From: Terriglobia bacterium
GTDB taxonomy: Bacteria; Acidobacteriota; UBA6911
Direction: 5' to 3'
DNA: 64,000 nucleotides
NCBI GenBank assembly: GCA_020072565.1
Contig: JAIQGI010000008.1
Location: 124,001 to 188,000 of the forward strand
Position numbers and translations under genes: made by a program. The notes under the pieces are model-generated. The model saw nothing but the letters and a program-made list of their open reading frames with translations. It was not told where the DNA came from and did no database searches. Shown piece after piece: positions 20,583-58,807 of the stretch; the first letter of the stretch is position 1, and the number at the start of each line of letters is the position of its first letter.

Positions 20583-20757
20583 GTCGTTCGGCAGGTGCAA
20601 CTCCTTGCTGAAAAAGGTCTCCCGACTTTCCCGCGCCGCCCGCCTCGCGTCTCATCGCCGGCCCCTCTTGTGCTGGCAATAAGTGCCAAAAATTTGTATA
20701 GTTACCCCCCATGAGTTTGGAGATCGCGGCTTTTCTTTCATACGGAATGGATGGATT

Positions 20758-23676
20758 ATGGCTTCCAAAAACCCTACTAATAAGAAGACGTTGTCTGCCC
20801 GGGGAATCCTGGACGATACCGGCAGCTTTGTTCATCGACACATAGGCCCGAGCGAACAGGATTGTCAGTCCATGCTGGAGGTCCTCGGTTTTCCCACGCT
20901 TGATGCTTTGATCGACAAGACCGTCCCGGCGCCGATTCGCATCCAGGCGCCGCTGCGGCTCGAGGAGGCGCGCAGCGAGCATGTAGCCTTGAGCGGGCTG
21001 CGCGAGCTGGCCTCCATGAACAAGTTGTTTCGGTCGTACATCGGCATGGGTTATTACGACTGCATCACCCCGCCGGTGATTCAACGCAACATCTTCGAAA
21101 ACCCCGGGTGGTACACGCAGTATACTCCCTATCAGCCTGAAATTTCCCAAGGGCGGCTTGAAGCGTTGCTTAACTTTCAAACCATGGTTGCGGATCTGAC
21201 CGGCCTGCCGGTTGCGAATGCGTCCCTGCTCGATGAAGCGACGGCCGCGGCCGAGGCCATGAACATGTGCTACGCCTTGAGCAAGGAAGAACGCAACTGT
21301 TTCTTCATCTCGGATCAGTGCCACCCGCAGATCATCGAGGTGGTCAGGACCAGAGCCGACGCGAAAGGGATCGAGGTGCTGGTCGGCGATCATGAGACTT
21401 TCGATTTTGCGCATCCGGTCTGCGGCGCACTGGTGCAGTATCCAGCCACTGACGGCTCGATCTGCGATTACTCCGCTTTCATCGAGCGGGCGCACCGGGC
21501 CGGAGCCTTGGTTGCGGTGGCCGCCGATCTGCTGAGCCTCACACTCCTGAAGGCTCCGGGGGAATTCGGGGCGGATGTGGCTGTCGGCACCTCCCAGCGT
21601 TTCGGCGTGCCCCTCGGCTACGGCGGTCCCCACGCGGCGTACATGTCTACCCGGGATGAATACAAGCGCTACATGCCTGGCCGCATCGTGGGGGTGTCCA
21701 AGGATCCGCATGGGAACGAAGCCCTGCGACTGGCGCTGCAGACACGCGAACAGCACATCCGGCGCGAAAAGGCGACGAGCAACATCTGTACAGCCCAGGT
21801 GTTACTTGCAGTCATGGCCAGCATGTACGCGATTTACCACGGCCCCTGCGGGCTCCGAAAGATCGCCGGGCGCATCCACCTGCTCACGTCGGTCCTGGCT
21901 AAACGCCTTGCACAGCTCGGCCATTCAGTCGGGCCCGAACTTTTCTTCGACACGCTTCGGGTGAAGCTGGGAAAGGGGCGTCTCGCCGGCATTCTTGACG
22001 CCGCGCGCGCCCATAAGATCAACCTGCGGATCATCAACGACACCACGGTCGGAATCAGTCTGGATGAGACCGTCACCGCCGGAGACCTCAAGGACCTGCT
22101 CATTGTTTTTGGTGAGCGCCAGGGCCTGCAGGAAGCAGAGATTGAAGATCTGGCCGGGACCGTCACAGCTTCTTACCCGGCGCACCTCGCCCGCACGAGC
22201 AGCTATCTGACACAGCCGGTGTTCAACCGCTATCACTCCGAAACAGAACTGCTGCGTTATACGCGCCGTCTCGAAGCGAGGGATCTCTCGCTCACCGCCT
22301 CGATGATCCCGCTCGGCTCCTGCACCATGAAGCTCAACGGCACCGCAGAAATGTATCCCGTGAGCTGGCCGGAGTTCAACCGGATCCATCCTTTCGCGCC
22401 GTTGGATCAGACCTCGGGCTATCAAGCCCTGTTCCGGCACCTGGAGCAGGCGCTGATTGAGATCACAGGCTTCGCGGGCGTTTCGTTGCAACCTAATTCC
22501 GGCGCCCAGGGGGAATTCACCGGTCTTCTCGTGATCCGCAAGTACCTCGACAGCCGGGGAGACGGGCATCGCAATGTGTGCCTCATCCCCCATTCCGCTC
22601 ACGGCACGAATCCCGCCAGCGCGATCATGGCCGGATTCAAAGTGGTTGTGGTCGAATGTGACGAACTGGGCAATATCGATGTGACCGACCTCAAGGCGAA
22701 AGCGGAGCTTCATGCGCGCGACCTCGGTGCGTTGATGGTCACCTATCCTTCAACCCACGGCGTGTTCGAAGAAGCGATCAAGGAGATCTGCGCTATTGTG
22801 CATGCGAACGGAGGCCAGGTTTATATGGATGGCGCCAACATGAATGCCCAGGTCGGTTTGTGCCGCCCCGGCGATATCGGCGCAGACGTCTGTCACCTGA
22901 ACCTTCACAAGACCTTCTCCATTCCCCATGGGGGCGGAGGTCCGGGCGTAGGGCCCATCGCGGTCGCATCGCATCTGGCTCCTTTGCTTCCGCGCCATCC
23001 TGTGATTCCGGTGGGAGGGGAGAAAGGCATCGGGCCGGTTTCAGCAGCCCCTTACGGCAGCGCGAGCATCCTGCCGATATCGTGGGTCTACATCGCGCTC
23101 ATGGGGCCCGCCGGACTCACCGAAGCCACCCGATACGCCATCCTGAACGCCAACTACATCGCGAGACGGCTGGACCCGTACTATCCCCTGGTGTACAAGG
23201 GCAAACACGGGATGATCGCCCATGAATGCATCCTGGATCTGCGGCCGCTGAAGAAGAGCGCAGGCATCGAAGTGGATGACGTCGCCAAGCGTCTCATGGA
23301 CTATGGATTCCACGCTCCCACGGTTTCCTTTCCGGTCGCAGGCACCATGATGGTGGAGCCGACAGAAAGCGAATCCAAAGAGGAACTCGATCGGTTCTGC
23401 GAGGCGATGATCGCCATCCGTAAAGAGATCGAGGCGATCGAGCAGGGAAGGATGGATCCGAAGGACAACCTGCTGAAAAATGCGCCGCATACTGCCAAAG
23501 CGCTCTTGGCTGAGGAGTGGACCCATCCCTATACCCGCCTCGAGGCGGCCTATCCAGCCGCGGCGACCCGCGAGAACAAGTTCTGGCCCGCGGTGGGTCG
23601 CGTTGACAATGTCTACGGCGATCGTCACCTGGTCTGCGGTTTGGCGCCAGCGAAGATACAATCTGCGAAGAAATAG
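20758..23676 (+). CDS. gcvP: Glycine dehydrogenase (P-protein), single chain
   Basis: This is full-length GcvP (972 residues), the PLP-dependent decarboxylase of the glycine cleavage system. It transfers the aminomethyl group of glycine to lipoyl-GcvH. Both halves of the homodimeric type are present in one chain. The N-terminal half starts [17 protein letters not shown] and includes [13 protein letters not shown]. The C-terminal half contains [26 protein letters not shown] and the PLP-lysine motif [18 protein letters not shown] (Lys about 718). I prefer ATG 20758 over 20683 because the family begins close to the RHIGP motif. Its partners are nearby but not co-transcribed: gcvH and the fused gcvT-glyA lie on the other strand. 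A TATAGT box at 20697-20702 may serve as the -10 element. Confidence 0.97.
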
Positions 23677-23886: not shown

Positions 23887-24276
23887 TCAGCTGCCGGACA
23901 ACTCCTGGAGGTATTCTTCGTACTCCTCCGCGCTGAGCATCTCTTTGAGTTCTTCCGGATTGGAGATTCGGATCTTGATCATCCAGGCCTTTTGATGGGG
24001 CGACTCGTTGACAAGCTCCGGATTGTCTTCCAGTTTTGCATTGACCTCGAGAACCTCGCCGCTGACGGGACTGAACACCTCGGAGACCGCCTTGACCGAT
24101 TCGACGGAGCCAAAAGGTTCTGTAGCCTCAAAAGTGTCTCCCACCTCCGGCAGATCCACGTAGACCACGTCCCCCAATTCATGCTGGGCGTAGTCGGTTA
24201 TGCCTACGATTCCCACATCTCCCTGGACGTGAATCCACTCGTGATCTTTTGTATACAGGTTTTCCTCGGGGTACAT
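23887..24276 (-). CDS. gcvH: Glycine cleavage system H-protein
   Basis: GcvH (129 residues) is the lipoylated carrier that shuttles the aminomethyl group from GcvP to GcvT and is reoxidised by the L-protein. The lipoyl-lysine is K62 in GSVESVKAVSE; DHEWI, GITDYAQHELGDVVYVDLP and the SPVSGEVLEVN stretch are diagnostic. ATG 24276 is chosen because GGAGG lies 8 bases upstream; the in-frame ATG at 24306 has none. It converges on gcvP, and its leader contains a possible RNA structure (24326-24416). No lpd gene is in the window, so the L-protein must be encoded elsewhere. Confidence 0.97.
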   Translation of the reverse strand: MYPEENLYTKDHEWIHVQGDVGIVGITDYAQHELGDVVYVDLPEVGDTFEATEPFGSVESVKAVSEVFSPVSGEVLEVNAKLEDNPELVNESPHQKAWMIKIRISNPEELKEMLSAEEYEEYLQELSGS

Positions 24277-24325
24277 AGGGTAAACCTCCGCTGTGACTGA
24301 ATGCATGAGCCCTTGCAGGGCCGAC

Positions 24326-24416: not shown

Positions 24417-24747
24417 AGCTTACCTTTCCAAAGGAGCGAAAAAGTGCATGCGGAATCTAACACTCTTGTGGGGTGGAGTCAAGCTCAATGTATTCCATGA
24501 ACATACTGAAAACACAGGGTTTATAGTATAAAAATGTGACGGGCAGTCAGGAGTTGGGAGAAAAAGCAGCAGGCAAAGGTGACCACGCAACCTGCATCAG
24601 AGTGAGCCCGCGAGAGAGAGCTGCCTGCGGTTTCTTGCACGGATTCGTCCGTTATGGTTCGGGGCCGTTTTTTGGCAGATGGGAGACGGTGAAGATATAC
24701 TGGAACTGGCGCAGAGTGACGGAGTATAAGATATAGGTCAGGCAGTG

Positions 24748-27198
24748 ATGATTCGACGCTTTCTTTTCCTGAGTTGCCTGTTACTGGCGGCTCCTCATCT
24801 ATTTTCCCAGACTTCGCCCCGGTTGACAATCCGCAGCGTGCAAGTCCGCGGCAACGTCCGCATCCCTGCGGCCACGATTCTCCACTACGTCTCTGCTGCC
24901 CCCGACAAGTTGTACGACGAGGCCGGAACCCGCGCAGATATGCACTTTCTCTATGGCTTGGGAGTATTTCAATCGCTTGAGATCCAGACGCAGGAAGCTG
25001 GGGAAGGGGGAATCGACGTCATCTATCGGGTGCGCGAGCAGCCTTTTGTCTCAGAGTTTGTGATCGAAGGTGTGAGCGAGGGAGAACAGGAACAGATCCG
25101 GCGTTTGCTGGGCCAGCAGAAGCTCTTGATGCAGCCCGCAACGCCTTTTCGTCCCGGAGCGGCGAACAAGGCGGCGAATTTCGTGCGCAGCTACCTGCGG
25201 ATGCACAAGTATCCGTTTGCGCAGGTGCGCGTGCTTACGGAGGAGGAGAGAGAAGGCACCGCGCGGCTCAAGCTGAGCATCAATGCGGGCCCTAATCTGG
25301 ATGTCGGGGAAGTCCGCTTCAGTGGTAACCGATCCATCCCATCCGGCGATTTGCTGAAGCAGCTGCAGTACACGCGTCCCGCTCCATTTTTTGCGCCCTG
25401 GCTGCGGGGGGCGTATGTGGCCGAGGACGTCAACGCGGATCTGGACAGCCTCCGTCGCTATTACCAGTCGCAAGGTTTTGCCGCCGCAAGCATCGGCACG
25501 CCGGAGATGGTTGCCCGGGATTTCCCGCGGCGATATTTGGTGCCTCTGCCGAAAATAGGCGGATCGAAACAGAAACTGGCGCTTTTGATCCCGATTGTCG
25601 AGGGGCCGGGCTACCGGCTGGTGTCGGTCGGCAGCGACGGGAGCGCGAAATCTGCTGCTGCAAAGGTGGCTGAGATCCTCGCCGCCGTCAAGGTGCCCGG
25701 CCCCTATGACTCGTCGCTGCTCGAAGCGACGCGCCAGAAGATTGTGGATGCCCTGGGCCACGAAGGCTACGCGCTGGCACAGGTGATGCTCGAACAAAAC
25801 ATCGGCGACGCGGAGCTCACGGTCGGCGCCCTGTACCGGATCTATGCGGGAGATCCGATCGTGATCGGCAGAATCCAATTCAGCGGCAACACACGACTGC
25901 GGGAAAGATTTCTGCGCCGCGAAGTGGTGGTGCGCGAAGGGGAGATCTTCGATTCGGCAAAGCTGGATCAGAGCATCAAGCGTCTCAACCGGAGCGGGAT
26001 GATTCAGGAGGTCAGGCGCGCTGACGTAGCCCTGGATATGAACGAGAAAACCGACGAGCTGGACGTTACATTCAAGATCAAGGAGAAGGAGCGGCAGGGG
26101 ATTTACGGGACAGGCGGGACCGGCGGTATCGGGGGAGGGTATCTGGGAATACTATACAGCGCATTCGATCTGCTGGGGCTGGGCGAATCGCTTTCCCTGC
26201 AGCTGGACGGCGGCGCAGCGCAATCCAACATGGTGCTCGACATCATCGGCAGTCGTTTTCTCGGCCTTCCTTTTACCTTGGGTCTGTCGGTCTTCCATCG
26301 GCTGACCAATTTCAACGTGGCGAGTGTCGTGCCGAACGCTACGGATCTGATTCAGGTCCTCCGGCGTCGTTCCACCGGCATGGCCTTGTCCGGTGCCTAT
26401 CCGGTAACTTCAAAGGTTCAGGTCGGTCTGGGAGCGCAGTTCGAACGGCTTTCGCTGTCGCAAGACGCTTCAGCCGGTGCTGCTGCGCAAAACATTGTAC
26501 AGGGAAGAACGGAACTTTCGCCTACCTTTGTCTTCGACTCAACCAAGGGAACAGGGCCCGCGGCGCGCGGCACTCGATTCGCATTCACGAATTCCTGGGC
26601 GGGTACTACTCTGCTCCGGACGGTCGATTCGACCGCGCAGTCCTACCGTTTTTCCCAGTACGTGAACGATCCCATTACGCAGGGAAGGAATTCCTTTGCC
26701 TTCCGTTTCCAGGCCGCGATGACGCGTCCGCAAAACGGTGTGCCCCTGACGCTGGATCGGCGCTTCTATCCAGGCGATGAGATCGTGCGCGGGTTTGCGC
26801 GCGGCGCTATGACCGCCTGGGCTCTGCCAACCGGAACGGAGGTCTCCCCGAGCCCGGTGGGCGCCGATACCGTCCTGGGATTCTCCATGGAGTATCGCGT
26901 CCCGATTCAGGGGCCGCTGAGCGCCGCTGCCTTTGTGGACCTCGGGTGGAGCGGCCTGTCGAAGAGAAATGTGGATCCGGATACGAGTTCGAACCTGATT
27001 GACAAATCCAGCCGGGTCCTGCGCGCTTCGGTCGGCGGGGAGTTCCGCCTGCAGCTTCCGGTGATTCGTCAGCCTGCGCGCCTGATTTTTTCCTGGAATC
27101 CCCTGCGGCTCAACCAACTCATTCAGAACAAAGGCTCGCTGCTGCGCCTCGTGGACCCGCGCGGCTCGGTCCACTTTGCCCTCGGCGACCTGTTCTAG
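24748..27198 (+). CDS. Omp85/BamA-TamA family outer membrane protein
   Basis: This is an 816-residue outer-membrane beta-barrel protein with N-terminal POTRA repeats. The signal peptide is RRFLFLSCLLLAAPHLFSQ. POTRA-like modules follow (TIRSVQVRGNVRIPAATILHY; FVIEGVSEGEQEQI; VGEVRFSGNRSIPSGDLL; IGRIQFSGNTRLRERFLRRE). A Gly-rich turn (YGTGGTGGIGGGYLG) leads into the barrel, which has the conserved GTRF-like motif (PAARGTRFAF) and a typical final segment ending VHFALGDLF with the terminal aromatic residue. Such proteins insert or export outer-membrane proteins. Its length (4-5 POTRAs) fits BamA, but no bamA neighbours (skp, lpxD) are present, so I assign only the superfamily. GTG 24745 immediately precedes the ATG and could also start it. 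Confidence 0.85.
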   Translation: MIRRFLFLSCLLLAAPHLFSQTSPRLTIRSVQVRGNVRIPAATILHYVSAAPDKLYDEAGTRADMHFLYGLGVFQSLEIQTQEAGEGGIDVIYRVREQPFVSEFVIEGVSEGEQEQIRRLLGQQKLLMQPATPFRPGAANKAANFVRSYLRMHKYPFAQVRVLTEEEREGTARLKLSINAGPNLDVGEVRFSGNRSIPSGDLLKQLQYTRPAPFFAPWLRGAYVAEDVNADLDSLRRYYQSQGFAAASIGTPEMVARDFPRRYLVPLPKIGGSKQKLALLIPIVEGPGYRLVSVGSDGSAKSAAAKVAEILAAVKVPGPYDSSLLEATRQKIVDALGHEGYALAQVMLEQNIGDAELTVGALYRIYAGDPIVIGRIQFSGNTRLRERFLRREVVVREGEIFDSAKLDQSIKRLNRSGMIQEVRRADVALDMNEKTDELDVTFKIKEKERQGIYGTGGTGGIGGGYLGILYSAFDLLGLGESLSLQLDGGAAQSNMVLDIIGSRFLGLPFTLGLSVFHRLTNFNVASVVPNATDLIQVLRRRSTGMALSGAYPVTSKVQVGLGAQFERLSLSQDASAGAAAQNIVQGRTELSPTFVFDSTKGTGPAARGTRFAFTNSWAGTTLLRTVDSTAQSYRFSQYVNDPITQGRNSFAFRFQAAMTRPQNGVPLTLDRRFYPGDEIVRGFARGAMTAWALPTGTEVSPSPVGADTVLGFSMEYRVPIQGPLSAAAFVDLGWSGLSKRNVDPDTSSNLIDKSSRVLRASVGGEFRLQLPVIRQPARLIFSWNPLRLNQLIQNKGSLLRLVDPRGSVHFALGDLF

Positions 27199-27466: not shown

Positions 27467-30127
27467 CTAGAAAGTCGCCAGCAGCTTGGTCCGTTGCTGC
27501 TCCATATCCTTTCCGTCGAAACAGTAGCGCATCTTCAGGAAGCCCTGCCGGAACCTGGCCACTTCCTCCGCTACGTTCTTGCCTCTGACGGCGTCTGCAA
27601 AGAGCGCTGCAAACGCGCGGAAATCTTTCTCCTTCATTCCGAATCGGGTCATCTCGGAAACTCCCAGACGAAGTCCGGAGCTGGCCGTGAAGCTTTCGTC
27701 ACTCGGAACAGCCTGGTAGTTTACGATGATGTTGTTGCGCTCGAGGTTCCGGGCTACATCGCACCCGTGAGCGTAGCCGACTTTGACGATGACCTGGTGG
27801 GTGTCGGTATAGCGGATGGCCGGATCGCCGGCCACATCGAGGCCCTGTTCCTTGAGGGCACACGCCAGAGCCTTGGCATTGGCGATCACCTGAGGCTGGT
27901 ACTCACTCTTGAACGCGTTCATTTCGATTGCCGCCATGAGGAGCCCCAGCAACGTGCCCAGATGATGATTGCTGGTCATGCCCGGGAACGCCCGCCGCCG
28001 GACCGCATTCCACAGCTCGAACTCCGGGGTGTTCTCCGAGACATTCATTCCGATCACCCCGCGCTGCGACCCGAAGAACGTCTTGTGGGTGGAGCCGGTT
28101 ACGACATCGGCGCCTTCCTTGAACGGTTCCTGGAAATGAGGCCCGATCAATCCAAGGACATGCGCCATGTCGTACATGACGATCGGCGGTTCTTTTCGGT
28201 CCTTGACCAGCTTCCTGATTTCAGCGACGGGTTCCTTATGGATTACCATGCTCTTGCCGAAGATGATGATTTCCGGGTTGACCTGGTCCAGGATCTTCGC
28301 CGTTTCGGCCACATCGATCTTGAAGGGATTGTCCGCGCACACGGGGAAGTTGATCACGGCGAAGCGCTCGGTGACCGGGTCCTTGGCAATGTAGTCGCGG
28401 AGCGCGCCCATCGGTTGAGCGCTCAAATGCCCGCCGTAGGTGATGTGATTGTTCATGGCGAGGCGAATGCGCCCCGGCTCGCGGCGGCGGTCGATCCGGT
28501 TTCTGTAATCCACCATGGCGCTGAACACGGTCATGTTAGCCATCTGGCCGCTGATGGCGCGGGCCTCCACCTGCGGGCAGCCCAAGAATTGCGCCATTTC
28601 GGCCATCAGCCGGTCTTCAACCCAGGCAATGAAATCTGTGCCCTGATAGTAGAAGACTTCCTGGTCAAGAAAAGCCGCGAATTCCCTGTGCTCGGCGTAG
28701 CGCCCTACCGGGTCCGACACCTGAAGCATGCGCACGAGCGGGGAGGGTGTCATCTCGGACGGAATCAGGTTGATGCAGCGGCGCTGGCGCCACTCGTGGT
28801 TCTCGAGCGCCTTTCGGAGCAGCCGCCGGGCCTTCTCGAGACCTTCGCCCACCGCCGGCGCGCGCTCCGGCTTGTGCCAGCTCGCCGGAATCGGGCGAAA
28901 GTACGGCGGTGCCTCCGACCTTCCGTGCCATTGGACGATGCGGGCCTTCATGCGGCGCCCGCGGACCAGCACTTCGACCTCCTGCTCGGGCATCAAGGTT
29001 GCGTCCATCAGAGCCATGGCCACCGCCCGCCGCTCCGTTTCGTCGGTGATCCTCATGGTGGAACCTTCGCCCTCGAATTTCCAGTAGGGGGCTACGGTGC
29101 CGCTGGTTATCATCCCCACTTTTTTGTCCCCCATGAACACCTGATCTCCCTGGCGCGCCACGCCTTTGTCCACGATGGCCACCGGCCGGATCCGGCGCGG
29201 AAGGACATCGGAGGATTCATAGATGCCCTCCATGAGCCTTTTCACTTCCTCGAACTGGCGCGCCAAAGCCTCGCGGCCGATGAAACTGCCTTTGCGGTCG
29301 GAAAAGCTGACGGCGATGCTGGTGAGCGGAAAAGCGAAAGCCGGTATTTCCTTGCCTTCCGTGTCGATGCCGAATTCATGGCCATAGAGCGGCAGTCCGC
29401 CTTCAAGGCGAAGCGTGTCCCTGCCGCCGAGCCCGATGGGGAGTACGCCCCGGTCCTTGCCTGCTGCACAGAGCTTTGACCAGATCTTCACGGCCTGATC
29501 CGCGGGCACGAACAGCTCGAGGCAAATGGGTTCTGCCGTGTAGCCCGTGCGCCCGATAAGAATTTCCGTGCCGGAGATCGCCGCCCGCGACAGTGCATTG
29601 CGGAACGGCTTCGGCAGCGAGCCTCCTTCGATCAGCTCCTCCAGGATCAGCCCTGCGAGTGGACCCTGGAAGGCAATCATCGCCAGTTTCTCGCTGTGGT
29701 TTTCCATCACCAGGCCGGGAAAGTTGCGGGCTTGTTCCTGAAAATGGTGCCAGTCTTTTTCCGCATTGGATGCATTTACCACGAGCAGGTAATCATCTTC
29801 ACCAAAACGGTAGAGATACGCGTCGTCGACCAGGCCTCCGTTCTCATTCGGGACCAGTGTGTACTGGGCCTGCCACGGCTCGAGCGCCTCCGCGTTGTTG
29901 GACAGGACGTGCTGCAGAAATGGGATCCGGTCTGCGCCTTTGAAACGGAACCGGCCCATATGGCTGACATCAAACAAGCCGCCGAACTTGCGCGTGGCCA
30001 TATGCTCCTGGATGATGCCGGTTTCGTATTGCACCGGCATGTCCCATCCGCCGAAATCCACCATTTTCGCCCCATGATCGCGGTGCCATTGGTTTAACGG
30101 GGTCTTGTTAAGATTACTCGCCGTCAC
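27467..30127 (-). CDS. Fused aminomethyltransferase (GcvT) - serine hydroxymethyltransferase (GlyA)
   Basis: One 886-residue chain joins two C1 enzymes. I choose GTG 30127, preceded by AGAGGAGA; earlier in-frame codons lack a site. Residues about 1-410 are GcvT: MVDFGGWDMPVQYETG, FDVSHMGRF, GGLVDDAYLYR (catalytic Asp), GRTGYTAEP, LGGRDTLRLEGGLPLYGHE, and the C-terminal barrel motif GMITSGTVAPYWK. After a charged linker (EGLEKARRLLRKALENHEW), residues about 450-886 are a divergent SHMT: NLIPSEMTPSPL, SGQMANMTVF, HITYGGHLS, the YDMAHVLGL pocket, PLP-lysine in TGSTHKTFFGSQRG, and GLRLGVSEMTRFGM. Both active sites look intact. GcvT makes methylene-tetrahydrofolate from GcvH; SHMT uses it to make serine from glycine. 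The fusion could channel methylene-THF (inference). The alternative of a sequencing artefact is unlikely because the linker is open and in frame. Confidence 0.93.
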   Translation of the reverse strand: MTASNLNKTPLNQWHRDHGAKMVDFGGWDMPVQYETGIIQEHMATRKFGGLFDVSHMGRFRFKGADRIPFLQHVLSNNAEALEPWQAQYTLVPNENGGLVDDAYLYRFGEDDYLLVVNASNAEKDWHHFQEQARNFPGLVMENHSEKLAMIAFQGPLAGLILEELIEGGSLPKPFRNALSRAAISGTEILIGRTGYTAEPICLELFVPADQAVKIWSKLCAAGKDRGVLPIGLGGRDTLRLEGGLPLYGHEFGIDTEGKEIPAFAFPLTSIAVSFSDRKGSFIGREALARQFEEVKRLMEGIYESSDVLPRRIRPVAIVDKGVARQGDQVFMGDKKVGMITSGTVAPYWKFEGEGSTMRITDETERRAVAMALMDATLMPEQEVEVLVRGRRMKARIVQWHGRSEAPPYFRPIPASWHKPERAPAVGEGLEKARRLLRKALENHEWRQRRCINLIPSEMTPSPLVRMLQVSDPVGRYAEHREFAAFLDQEVFYYQGTDFIAWVEDRLMAEMAQFLGCPQVEARAISGQMANMTVFSAMVDYRNRIDRRREPGRIRLAMNNHITYGGHLSAQPMGALRDYIAKDPVTERFAVINFPVCADNPFKIDVAETAKILDQVNPEIIIFGKSMVIHKEPVAEIRKLVKDRKEPPIVMYDMAHVLGLIGPHFQEPFKEGADVVTGSTHKTFFGSQRGVIGMNVSENTPEFELWNAVRRRAFPGMTSNHHLGTLLGLLMAAIEMNAFKSEYQPQVIANAKALACALKEQGLDVAGDPAIRYTDTHQVIVKVGYAHGCDVARNLERNNIIVNYQAVPSDESFTASSGLRLGVSEMTRFGMKEKDFRAFAALFADAVRGKNVAEEVARFRQGFLKMRYCFDGKDMEQQRTKLLATF

Positions 30128-30527
30128 GGTCTTGTCTCCTCTGCTTCGAAAAAGGTTTTTAGGATACCTGAATTCTACCAACAAGGCCGACTGCAGCCGA
30201 AGCCGTCGGCGGAAATAAACTTGTAATGATCATCCTGAAACCAGGTCAGCGCAATCAAAAAGAGCAGACGCAGGCCGGACCGCCTGGATCCCTGGCCGCT
30301 GCGGCGCGGCAAAAGCTCCTCCACGCCGACCAGGACCGATCGGTCGGCTTCGGTCGGCGTTTTCCTGCCTCCTAAACTGCACCTTGGCTGCACATTCACG
30401 AATAATCCGTGTCAGGGCCTTTTTTTTTCATGTCCGGTGGAGACTCCGAGACTTGAAAACCTCAAGAAAGTTGTTTGGAGAAGGCCGGGATTTGTGAGAA
30501 TGTCTTGCGTTCGGAAATGGAGGAGCT
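30128..30527. other. Intergenic region upstream of gcvT-glyA
   Basis: This 400-base gap separates divergent gcvT-glyA and the ANKH-like transporter. It holds repeat copy C (30301-30409) and a nine-T run at 30422-30430. An open minus-strand frame (30175-30399) runs through the repeat but resembles no protein. Promoters for both genes should lie here; none is obvious. Confidence 0.4.
30301..30409 (-). repeat. MITE-like structured repeat, copy C (diverged)
   Basis: Read on the minus strand it starts CGGATTATTCGTGAATGTGC and contains the arm CGCCGACC ... GGTCGGCG (eight perfect pairs) around the 12-base palindrome GACCGATCGGTC, ending GGAGCTTTTGCCGCGCCGC. It differs from copies B and D at many single bases but has no insertions or deletions, and several changes keep the stem paired. 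Confidence 0.7.
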
Positions 30528-31832
30528 GTGACCTTACCGGCGTCGGTATCAACGCAGCGGCAGATCTTCCTGTTCTGGGTCCCGCTCGCTGCCAGCTGGT
30601 TGCTGATGGGTGCGGAGGTGCCGGTGCTTCAGGCAGCGATCGCCCGCCTGCCGGACATGCAGACACAACTCGCTGCTTTCGGCATAGTCATGAGCCTGGA
30701 GATCGCGATCGAGAGCCCGGTTATCATGCTGCTTGCCACCAGCACCGCGCTCTCCACGAGTGCCCGCAATTATCTCACCCTCCGTCGCTTCATGATCTGG
30801 ATCAACGTACTCGCCACGGCGACTGCAGTACTGGTGGCCTTCACTCCGGTATTTGACTTGGTCGTGCGCTCGCTCATGGGCATCCCGCCGGACATCGCCG
30901 ACGCCGCACAGCCAGGCATGAGGATCATGACGCTCTGGACTGCGGCCATCGGCGTGCGCCGGTTCTACCAGGGCGTCATGATCCGCCACGGGCAAACCCG
31001 CTCGATCGGATATGGGACCGCCGCCCGTCTTGCAGGGTCGGCGGGGACGGGCATCCTGCTCGCGCTGGTCACTCATTTACCCGGCGCCTGCGTGGGCAGC
31101 ATCGCGCTCATGGCCGGCGTGTCGACGGAGGCCACGTTCGTTGCGTGCGTGGTGCGGCCGACTGTAAAACGGGTCCTGGCGGGCGGGCCGGAGCGGAGCA
31201 CCGATGTCTTCGGCATGTGGGATGTCCTGCGCTACCACGCGCCGCTGGCGGCGACATCCCTGCTGACCCTCCTTGCCCAGCCGCTGATTGGCGCCGGATT
31301 GGCGCGCATGCCGCACCCCGAGGAGAACCTTGCAGCCTGGCCCGTTGTGTGGGGAATTGTGTTTCTGTTCCGCAGCCCGACCTTCGCACTGCCGGAGGCG
31401 GTCATCGCCCTGGTTACCGAGCGCCGCCTCAAGGGGGCGGTGTGGACGTTCTGCCGCAGGATCGGCATCGCATGCTCGGCAGCCATGCTGCTGGTAGTGG
31501 CAACACCGCTGTCGAGGATCTACATCTACTACGTTGCCGGCCTCCCGGCGAACCTGTCACGCTTTGTGATTCCCGCCATCGTGCTTGCCTTGGCGCTCCC
31601 CTTCATCAATTCGATCCACAGCTGGCTGCGCGGTCTGCTCATGGCGGCCCACTCCACCAAAACGATCTATTGGGGAATGGGGCTCAATCTGGGAGTGACG
31701 GCAATTATCGTGGCGGCAGCGGCTCTCATGCACGCCCCCGGCGCGGAGACGGCAGTCATCGCGCTGACTGCAGCCTTCATTGCAGAAATCCTTTACCTGC
31801 GCAAGGCCGGCCGCTCGGTCCTCACCGTCTAG
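30528..31832 (+). CDS. ANKH-like (progressive ankylosis) MOP-superfamily transporter
   Basis: This 434-residue protein has about 12 hydrophobic segments. Its pattern matches bacterial homologues of ANKH, a branch of the MOP/MATE exporter superfamily: FWVPLAASWLLMGAEVPVLQ, AFGIVMSLEIAIESPVIMLL, TALSTSARNYLTLRRFMIWI, and the diagnostic AAIGVRRFYQGVMIRHGQT. Human ANKH moves ATP/citrate/pyrophosphate-related solutes out of cells; the bacterial substrate is unknown. GTG 30528 is preceded by GGAGGAG. The gene is divergent from gcvT-glyA and convergent with the amidohydrolase; repeat copy D starts two bases after its stop. A lipid-flippase or MATE drug-efflux role is the main alternative. Confidence 0.75.
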   Translation: MTLPASVSTQRQIFLFWVPLAASWLLMGAEVPVLQAAIARLPDMQTQLAAFGIVMSLEIAIESPVIMLLATSTALSTSARNYLTLRRFMIWINVLATATAVLVAFTPVFDLVVRSLMGIPPDIADAAQPGMRIMTLWTAAIGVRRFYQGVMIRHGQTRSIGYGTAARLAGSAGTGILLALVTHLPGACVGSIALMAGVSTEATFVACVVRPTVKRVLAGGPERSTDVFGMWDVLRYHAPLAATSLLTLLAQPLIGAGLARMPHPEENLAAWPVVWGIVFLFRSPTFALPEAVIALVTERRLKGAVWTFCRRIGIACSAAMLLVVATPLSRIYIYYVAGLPANLSRFVIPAIVLALALPFINSIHSWLRGLLMAAHSTKTIYWGMGLNLGVTAIIVAAAALMHAPGAETAVIALTAAFIAEILYLRKAGRSVLTV

Positions 31833-57529: not shown

Positions 57530-57730
57530 CTCAGCTGTCACTTGGAGCATCTCGCGAATAACTGAAAGATCCGTAGTATTTGCCGCGCGAATATCGAATT
57601 GTACCATTAGGGCGGGCCGCCTAATATCTAGTTTTAGGCCCGGAGGGGTGCTGTCGGGACCCTTTCGAATGTCGGTTTCCATGACATGTCTGCGGCCGAG
57701 TTTTTGATCCATTGCCGCACGGAGGTTGAC

Positions 57731-58807
57731 TTGAAATCCCGCACCACGCCCCTTCACGAAGCCGAAGCAGCCGCCGGCGCATGCTTCGAGCCCTATTGCG
57801 GCTGGGAAGTCGCTGCCCACTATGGCAATCCGGATGCGGAGTACCAGGCCCTGCGTCTGACCGCAGGCGCCCTGAATGCTTGCTTTCTTGGCAAGCTGCG
57901 GGCAGCGGGGAAAGACAGACATCGCTACTTGAACAGCATGCTGACCCACAACATCAAGGACCTCGGGATGGGGACAGGATGTTATGCCGCACTATTGACG
58001 CGCCAGGGATTGATGGAGTCCGACCTCTGGGTTTATGCCTTTGCGGACGAGTTGTGGCTGGAATGCCCGCCGTGCGGAGTCGACCGTGCCCTCGCGACCC
58101 TGGCCAAGCATATTGTCAGCGACGTCGTGTCTCTGGACGACATCACCGACGCTTTCGGGATTCTCTCGCTGCAGGGGCCGAAGGCTGGAAAAATCATGGA
58201 GACTGCCGCGGGGGTTTCCCTGTCGACACTTCGGCCGCTGGAACATCGGACGATTGAGCGGGAGAGGGGCAATTGGGTTGTTGTGAATCGCGATCGCTCA
58301 GGCAGCGGCGGCTACGACCTATGGCTGCCGTGCGCGGATCTGCCGGGGGTCTGGAATCAATGGACTGAAGTTGAGAGGGTGCAACCGGTCGGACTGCGGG
58401 CATTGAACTGGGCCCGGACTGAAGCGGGGATTCCCTGGTATGGGAGCGATATGGATGACAGGTCTCTTCCTGTGGAGATGGGACTCGATGCGGCAATCAG
58501 CATGAACAAGGGCTGCTACCGGGGGCAGGAAATCGTTGCCCGCATCGCGCACCGGGGCCGCCTGGACCGCAGGTTGGGCGGCGTCGTGGTTGACAATCAC
58601 GAACCGCCGGCCAGAGGGGCGGAAGTGCGCTCGGAGGGAGTCAGGATCGGCGAAGTGTGTTCAGCCGTGCCCTCTCCGCGCCTCGGGAAGCCGCTCGCTC
58701 TCGCGGTCATCAAGACGGCTTTCCTGCGGCCGGGAACTCCCGTCGAGGTGGACTCCGGACATGGCTACCTTCCGGGGACCGTAGTAGCCCTTCCCATCAA
58801 GCATTGA
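57731..58807 (+). CDS. ygfZ: Folate-dependent Fe-S maintenance protein YgfZ
   Basis: YgfZ (about 358 residues) is a GcvT-related, folate-binding protein that helps repair or mature Fe-S enzymes. Its hallmark KGCYRGQEIVARIAHRG is present, and the GcvT-like fold is seen in RHRYLNSMLTHNIKDLGMG and LLTRQGLMESDLWVYAF. There is no aminomethyltransferase catalytic Asp context. I prefer the TTG at 57731, five bases after a perfect ACGGAGGT (57718-57725); an ATG at 57686 is in frame but has no ribosome site. It faces the 2Fe-2S ferredoxin gene across a 200-base divergent promoter region. Confidence 0.9.
   Translation: MKSRTTPLHEAEAAAGACFEPYCGWEVAAHYGNPDAEYQALRLTAGALNACFLGKLRAAGKDRHRYLNSMLTHNIKDLGMGTGCYAALLTRQGLMESDLWVYAFADELWLECPPCGVDRALATLAKHIVSDVVSLDDITDAFGILSLQGPKAGKIMETAAGVSLSTLRPLEHRTIERERGNWVVVNRDRSGSGGYDLWLPCADLPGVWNQWTEVERVQPVGLRALNWARTEAGIPWYGSDMDDRSLPVEMGLDAAISMNKGCYRGQEIVARIAHRGRLDRRLGGVVVDNHEPPARGAEVRSEGVRIGEVCSAVPSPRLGKPLALAVIKTAFLRPGTPVEVDSGHGYLPGTVVALPIKH

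Follow-up and report, generated by a model that had tools for sequence, protein, structure and literature searches.

Genes at the locus

The window analysed here, a stretch of 64,000 nucleotides, stems from a genome of 7.46 Mb (135 contigs, 98% complete) and carries on its minus strand a gene whose product joins a GcvT half to a serine hydroxymethyltransferase (SHMT) half (Table 1). An ORF check showed the frame of 886 aa to be uninterrupted between its GTG and its stop. This GTG is a better start than the TTG upstream at 30184, since it is preceded by an AGGAGA motif and since homologues start at about the same place. Pfam domains were found in the order GCV_T (residues 11-256, E 3e-74), GCV_T_C (314-348, matched in part only) and SHMT (437-841, E 5e-38), and with E-values far under 1e-30 the domain matches are not due to chance. 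The GC content of the gene is not distinctive, so that a recent transfer is neither supported nor excluded. Divergent from the fusion, at 30528-31832 on the plus strand, lies a gene for a probable membrane protein of 434 aa, without a Pfam match at E ≤1e-5.

Table 1. Features of the fusion gene and its neighbours in the window
Feature	Position	Strand	Remarks
gcvP, single-chain glycine decarboxylase	20683..23676	plus	profile matches; true start may be downstream of its GTG
gcvH, lipoyl carrier protein of the glycine cleavage system	23887..24306	minus	profile matches
Omp85/POTRA outer-membrane protein gene	24745-27198	plus	between gcvH and the fusion, on the strand opposite to both
gcvT-glyA fusion gene	27467..30127	minus	886 aa; GTG start at 30127; stop at 27467 included
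C-terminal tail, residues 866-886	27470..27532	minus	mostly helix in the predicted model
SHMT half, residues 437-865, archaeal-type-like	27533..28819	minus	Pfam and structure-database match
PLP lysine K682 codon of the SHMT half	28082-28084	minus	
Linker, residues 409-436	28820..28903	minus	28 residues; alignment and structure model
GcvT half, residues 1-408	28904..30127	minus	Pfam/NCBIfam profiles, alignment of fusions
Four family-specific insertions of the GcvT half			near residues 256-263, 293-307, 350-365 and 401-407
Catalytic Asp101 codon of the GcvT half	29825-29827	minus	alignment with E. coli GcvT
Shine-Dalgarno-like AGGAGA	30135..30140	minus	shortly upstream of the fusion GTG

Both gcvP and gcvH lie within 7 kb of the fusion; together with the Omp85/POTRA gene they form a neighbourhood and not one operon. 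Two GcvT-family genes are present in the genome, namely the fusion and a gene at 57686-58807 of the window (plus strand). As a candidate for a second gcvT the latter was rejected, because it passes the YgfZ/CAF17 model (82.1 vs 49), fails the GcvT cut-offs and is thus a YgfZ, leaving the fusion as the only T-protein of the genome. The initial annotation had linked the fusion to the glycine cleavage system, which is borne out by the proximity of gcvP and gcvH and by this only gcvT; its picture of a GcvP-GcvH-GcvT/GlyA set holds as regards the closeness of the genes, but not as an operon, the strands being mixed. Separate genes, the presence of which it had proposed to check, were found for one function only: there is no other gcvT, but a canonical glyA is encoded on contig 20 (C20:195595-196722), which gives the genome an SHMT besides that of the fusion. 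A search for glycine riboswitches revealed none in the window at the gathering score and none near the fusion start at E ≤1.

The GcvT half

The N-terminal half passes the GcvT models TIGR00528 (255.3, cut-off 235.85) and NF001567 (311.1, cut-off 300), with the alignment to the latter spanning residues 5-399. For the sarcosine oxidase alpha model TIGR01372 it scores 123 against a cut-off of 1164, and this match is confined to the GcvT-like part. The partner genes by which GcvT membership was also judged, gcvP and gcvH, are both found within the window. In the alignment, D101 corresponds to D97 of E. coli GcvT, the residue mutated in PDB 3a8k, and it is invariant in 41 aligned fusions. The half is thus predicted to act as an aminomethyltransferase.

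The SHMT half

The C-terminal half reaches 131.3 for the Pfam SHMT family PF00464 (gathering cut-off 27). Eleven residues of E. coli GlyA, namely S35, Y55, E57, Y65, H126, S175, D200, H203, H228, K229 and R363, are identical in the alignment, and the active-site residues of the half are K682, H681, D653, H656, E479, Y477, H567, S626 and R820. The catalytic positions are invariant in the 41 aligned fusions, except for the Y65 equivalent, with a conservation of 90% or more. Together with D101, these alignments with the E. coli enzymes confirm the earlier statement that both active sites are intact.

Changes were found at E. coli GlyA positions S99, R235 and N347 (Q in all three) and at G262-G263, all of which also occur in stand-alone relatives of the half. 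The GlyA subfamily model NF000586 is failed (253.6 vs 335; alignment spanning 437-863), the half falls outside the canonical GlyA clade in the tree, and its closest solved structure is the SHMT of Methanocaldococcus jannaschii (E 1e-49, compared with 4e-25 for E. coli GlyA). The divergence from the E. coli type, already suspected in the initial annotation, is hereby substantiated and, judging by sequence, the half is archaeal-type-like.

A different aldol activity, for example that of a threonine aldolase or transaldolase, appears very improbable. It is true that the half also matches the L-threonine transaldolase structure 7k34 and the fluorothreonine transaldolase model TIGR04506, but the latter score remains at 120.6 with a cut-off of 650, and E57 and most folate-site residues are retained. 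The fusion to a THF enzyme and the glycine riboswitches described below likewise point to SHMT. Moreover, a stand-alone sister group of the half is the only SHMT, in place of GlyA, in 20 of the 21 genomes of the source phylum that were checked (most >90% complete), which provides good indirect evidence that proteins of this type would be working SHMTs. We therefore expect serine hydroxymethyltransferase activity for the fused half as well.

Distribution and origin of the fusion

The first fusion homologue seen was WP_212821284.1 of Vescimonas fastidiosa. Including it, a scan of GTDB genomes uncovered at least 55 loci with both halves in one frame, distributed over about eight phyla. Carriers belong to the Bacillota, Thermodesulfobacteriota and other deltaproteobacteria, Actinomycetota, Planctomycetota, Spirochaetota, Armatimonadota and Pseudomonadota, though some of these phylum labels may be wrong. 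End-to-end homologues in unrelated genomes display 47-64% identity and, with the open frame and the Pfam domains, establish the single-chain fusion that had been reported for this DNA. In the phylum of the source genome the fusion is not common, being present in the source genome alone (one of 396 genomes), and stand-alone relatives of the SHMT half with 49-56% identity occur in many of these 396 genomes (loci L006-L016 and L047-L075). Of 394 genomes in the order to which one gut carrier belongs, 8 possess the fusion.

That the long frame is an artefact of assembly or annotation has a negligible probability. The contig comes from a draft genome, three fusion loci are frameshifted in the GcvT half, and one has an in-frame stop; however, at least 42 complete homologous fusions from independent assemblies, including the complete chromosome of Ca. 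Formimonas, refute such an explanation, and between the two domains, where a stop or frameshift had been considered, the frame is intact.

The in-frame stop is a TAG within the GcvT half of a deltaproteobacterial fusion (L108:1012-1014). Its reading as pyrrolysine was rejected, as no PylS above the cut-off was found in that genome, which makes an error or a broken gene the more likely cause.

Phylogenetic analysis placed the fused SHMT halves in one group (SH-aLRT 92, or 95 once the long row L123 is left out); a single stand-alone SHMT (L131) also falls inside it. The fused GcvT halves also form one group, on a long branch (support 100), in which six stand-alone GcvTs of gut Clostridia are nested (L141, L143, L144, L145, L146 and L149). 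These separate proteins, the six GcvTs and L131, all from gut Clostridia, are best read from their positions in the trees as cases of secondary loss or split. Since all fusions fall into one clade in both trees, a recent lineage-specific fusion can be ruled out, and a single fusion event followed by spread and then a few losses or splits is indicated. The fusion of the window groups with L077 and L078 in the trees of both halves, and the pairwise distances of one half correlate with those of the other (r = 0.87), meaning that both halves travel together.

Outside the fusions, the fused SHMT is most closely related to stand-alone proteins from Aminicenantes, WOR-3, Fermentibacterota and the source phylum. 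Genomes of the source phylum are interspersed in the trees with sequences of Aminicenantes and Acidobacteriota, which makes the source organism a probable acidobacteriote. In WOR-3, the gene just after the stand-alone SHMT, on its downstream side, is glycerate-kinase-like.

Gene context in relatives and direction of the reaction

Apart from the source genome, 28 fusion genomes were checked, many of them drafts, so that absences weigh less than presences. All but one encode gcvP (27 of 28); the fusion is the only detected GcvT in 15, the only SHMT above the cut-off in 10 and both at once in 8. With a separate glyA here and in more than half of the fusion genomes that were checked, the SHMT half would be dispensable there for basal serine-glycine conversion. 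Neighbouring genes were assigned by reference searches, since antisense frames dominated the ORF clusters of GC-rich loci. Many Clostridia show the gene order fusion-gcvH-gcvPA-gcvPB, often together with lpd. Sporomusa ovata and Clostridium thailandense have a second, stand-alone gcvT, and their fusion is an orphan gene.

Glycine riboswitches, as a rule, switch on glycine breakdown. Their aptamers precede the fusion or its operon in 7 of the 26 loci scanned (L076, L087, L091, L092, L097, L118 and L126); at L118 (Ca. Formimonas), two of them lie upstream of an otherwise orphan fusion gene. In L092 (Thermoleophilia) a riboswitch is followed by a glyoxylate/hydroxypyruvate reductase-like gene and an aminotransferase-like gene, next by the fusion and lastly by a glycerate 2-kinase gene, an arrangement that fits a path from glycine via serine and hydroxypyruvate to 2-phosphoglycerate. 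The conversion of glycine and serine via hydroxypyruvate to 2-phosphoglycerate is that of the textbook serine cycle. Many other deltaproteobacterial and actinobacterial carriers display no context of this kind. The L092 cluster (L092:5375-16245) also includes a gene that by eye is amidinotransferase-like and, further along, an MttB-like gene.

We consider it highly probable that the fusion belongs to the glycine cleavage system as a bifunctional enzyme which couples glycine to serine on a shared THF pool. The GcvT half would take the aminomethyl group from GcvH, release ammonia and make 5,10-methylene-THF; the PLP-dependent SHMT half, tied to it by a flexible linker whose length hardly varies, would join the methylene group to a second glycine, yielding serine and returning THF. 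Together with GcvP, GcvH and lipoamide dehydrogenase, two glycines would give serine, CO2, NH3 and NADH in a reversible net reaction. In the relatives, the glycine riboswitches and the L092 operon support glycine to serine as the main direction. The same direction, proposed in the initial annotation for the DNA studied here, gains support from them and is probable rather than certain.

A mainly reductive role, in which CO2, ammonia and formate-derived methylene-THF would be converted to glycine and the SHMT half would add a second methylene group to give serine, seems unlikely to us. The glycine cleavage system is reversible, the source genome encodes a formate-THF ligase, and many carriers belong to anaerobic lineages, among them sulfate reducers, the acetogen Sporomusa and Ca. 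Formimonas; in addition, CO2 fixation by the reductive glycine pathway is reported for D. desulfuricans (PMC7547702). Nevertheless, such a role is at odds with the riboswitch aptamers in front of the gene in several relatives and with the glycerate-forming genes in one operon (L092), and for gut Clostridia a heterotrophic role is enough.

Linker and coupling of the two halves

In 38 of the 41 fusions the linker comprises 28-29 residues, and its sequence conservation is poor (mean column identity 0.31 over 413-430). A fixed length combined with a free sequence points to a tether of defined reach, which would be compatible with a local transfer of methylene-THF. AlphaFold, run for the monomer from 40 sequences with row L076 left out, modelled both halves well (mean pLDDT 85.8; pTM 0.57) and gave low pLDDT over linker residues 411-421. 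Given this pTM and the low-confidence linker, no fixed interface is predicted in the monomer model. Because SHMTs form dimers, the fusion probably dimerizes as well, with two T-protein arms.

A linker region of 107 residues rather than 28 probably belongs to the Desulfamplus fusion (L127:7998-10880, about 960 aa), an assignment based on the size of this fusion and on the gap separating its two matched halves.

There is an even chance that the fusion mainly sets stoichiometry, co-expression or dimer assembly, with both halves active and methylene-THF passing via the bulk pool. The variable linker sequence, its low confidence in the model and the lack of a predicted fixed interface are in line with this, as are the lineages that have re-split the halves; the loss of the SHMT half in some gut Clostridia means that the tie between the halves is not indispensable. 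On the other hand, the near-constant linker length over several phyla suggests a geometric constraint. Such a role is compatible with the bifunctional enzyme preferred above and is a rival to channelling only. We regard it as rather doubtful, though conceivable, that the fusion is a true two-glycine-to-serine enzyme, in which methylene-THF would be passed from the GcvT to the SHMT half within one dimer without mixing with the bulk pool, by means of the near-fixed linker, and which would have persisted since a single ancient fusion and been transferred between phyla.

Significance

The GcvT-SHMT fusions constitute an old family over several bacterial phyla that is undescribed in searchable papers. 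The full-text literature searched names no such fusion, most subscription journals lying beyond that search, and an earlier mention may exist. A comparative study of Dehalobacteriia gives GcvT and GlyA as separate functions (PMC10327494). Fusion sequences are already public, labelled gcvT only, a systematic gap in annotation by which the SHMT of some genomes, including those of gut Clostridia, would be overlooked. The question whether methylene-THF is exchanged directly between the glycine cleavage system and SHMT bears on one-carbon metabolism, photorespiration and engineered formate assimilation, and a natural single-chain GcvT-SHMT offers a ready-made test of it as well as a compact part for reductive-glycine pathway engineering.

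Comparison with known systems

WP_212821284.1 of V. fastidiosa is a matching end-to-end fusion with 54% identity; unlike the fusion of the window, it heads a riboswitch-controlled gcv operon, and its public annotation is gcvT only. The fold, the catalytic Asp and whole-length homology are common to the GcvT half and the known GcvT structures (PDB 1yx2, 1wos and 3a8i), and gcvP and gcvH are nearby in both cases. In comparison with these, the fusion adds the C-terminal SHMT and the four family-specific insertions; it has SHMGR where many canonical GcvTs have SHMGE, and DDAYLY in place of DDLxxY.

With the M. jannaschii SHMT (PDB 4bhd, 4uqv), the SHMT half shares the motifs STHKTFFG.Q, SNHHL and YD.AHVLGL and the PLP-site residues, but it reveals only about 31% identity, has longer loops, is bacterial and is joined to GcvT. 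The stand-alone SHMT clade of the source phylum, Aminicenantes, WOR-3 and Fermentibacterota, with about 50-56% identity, is the sister of the fused halves, supplies the sole SHMT of most genomes that carry it and is itself unfused.

A further parallel is found in enzymes of the soxA/DMGDH type, which also contain a GcvT-like domain making methylene-THF and in some plasmids lie beside a glyA gene, as in the sarcosine oxidase gene clusters with glyA. Their GcvT-like domain is joined to a flavin oxidoreductase, whereas the fusion joins GcvT to SHMT and, in contrast to them, has GcvH and GcvP as its partners.
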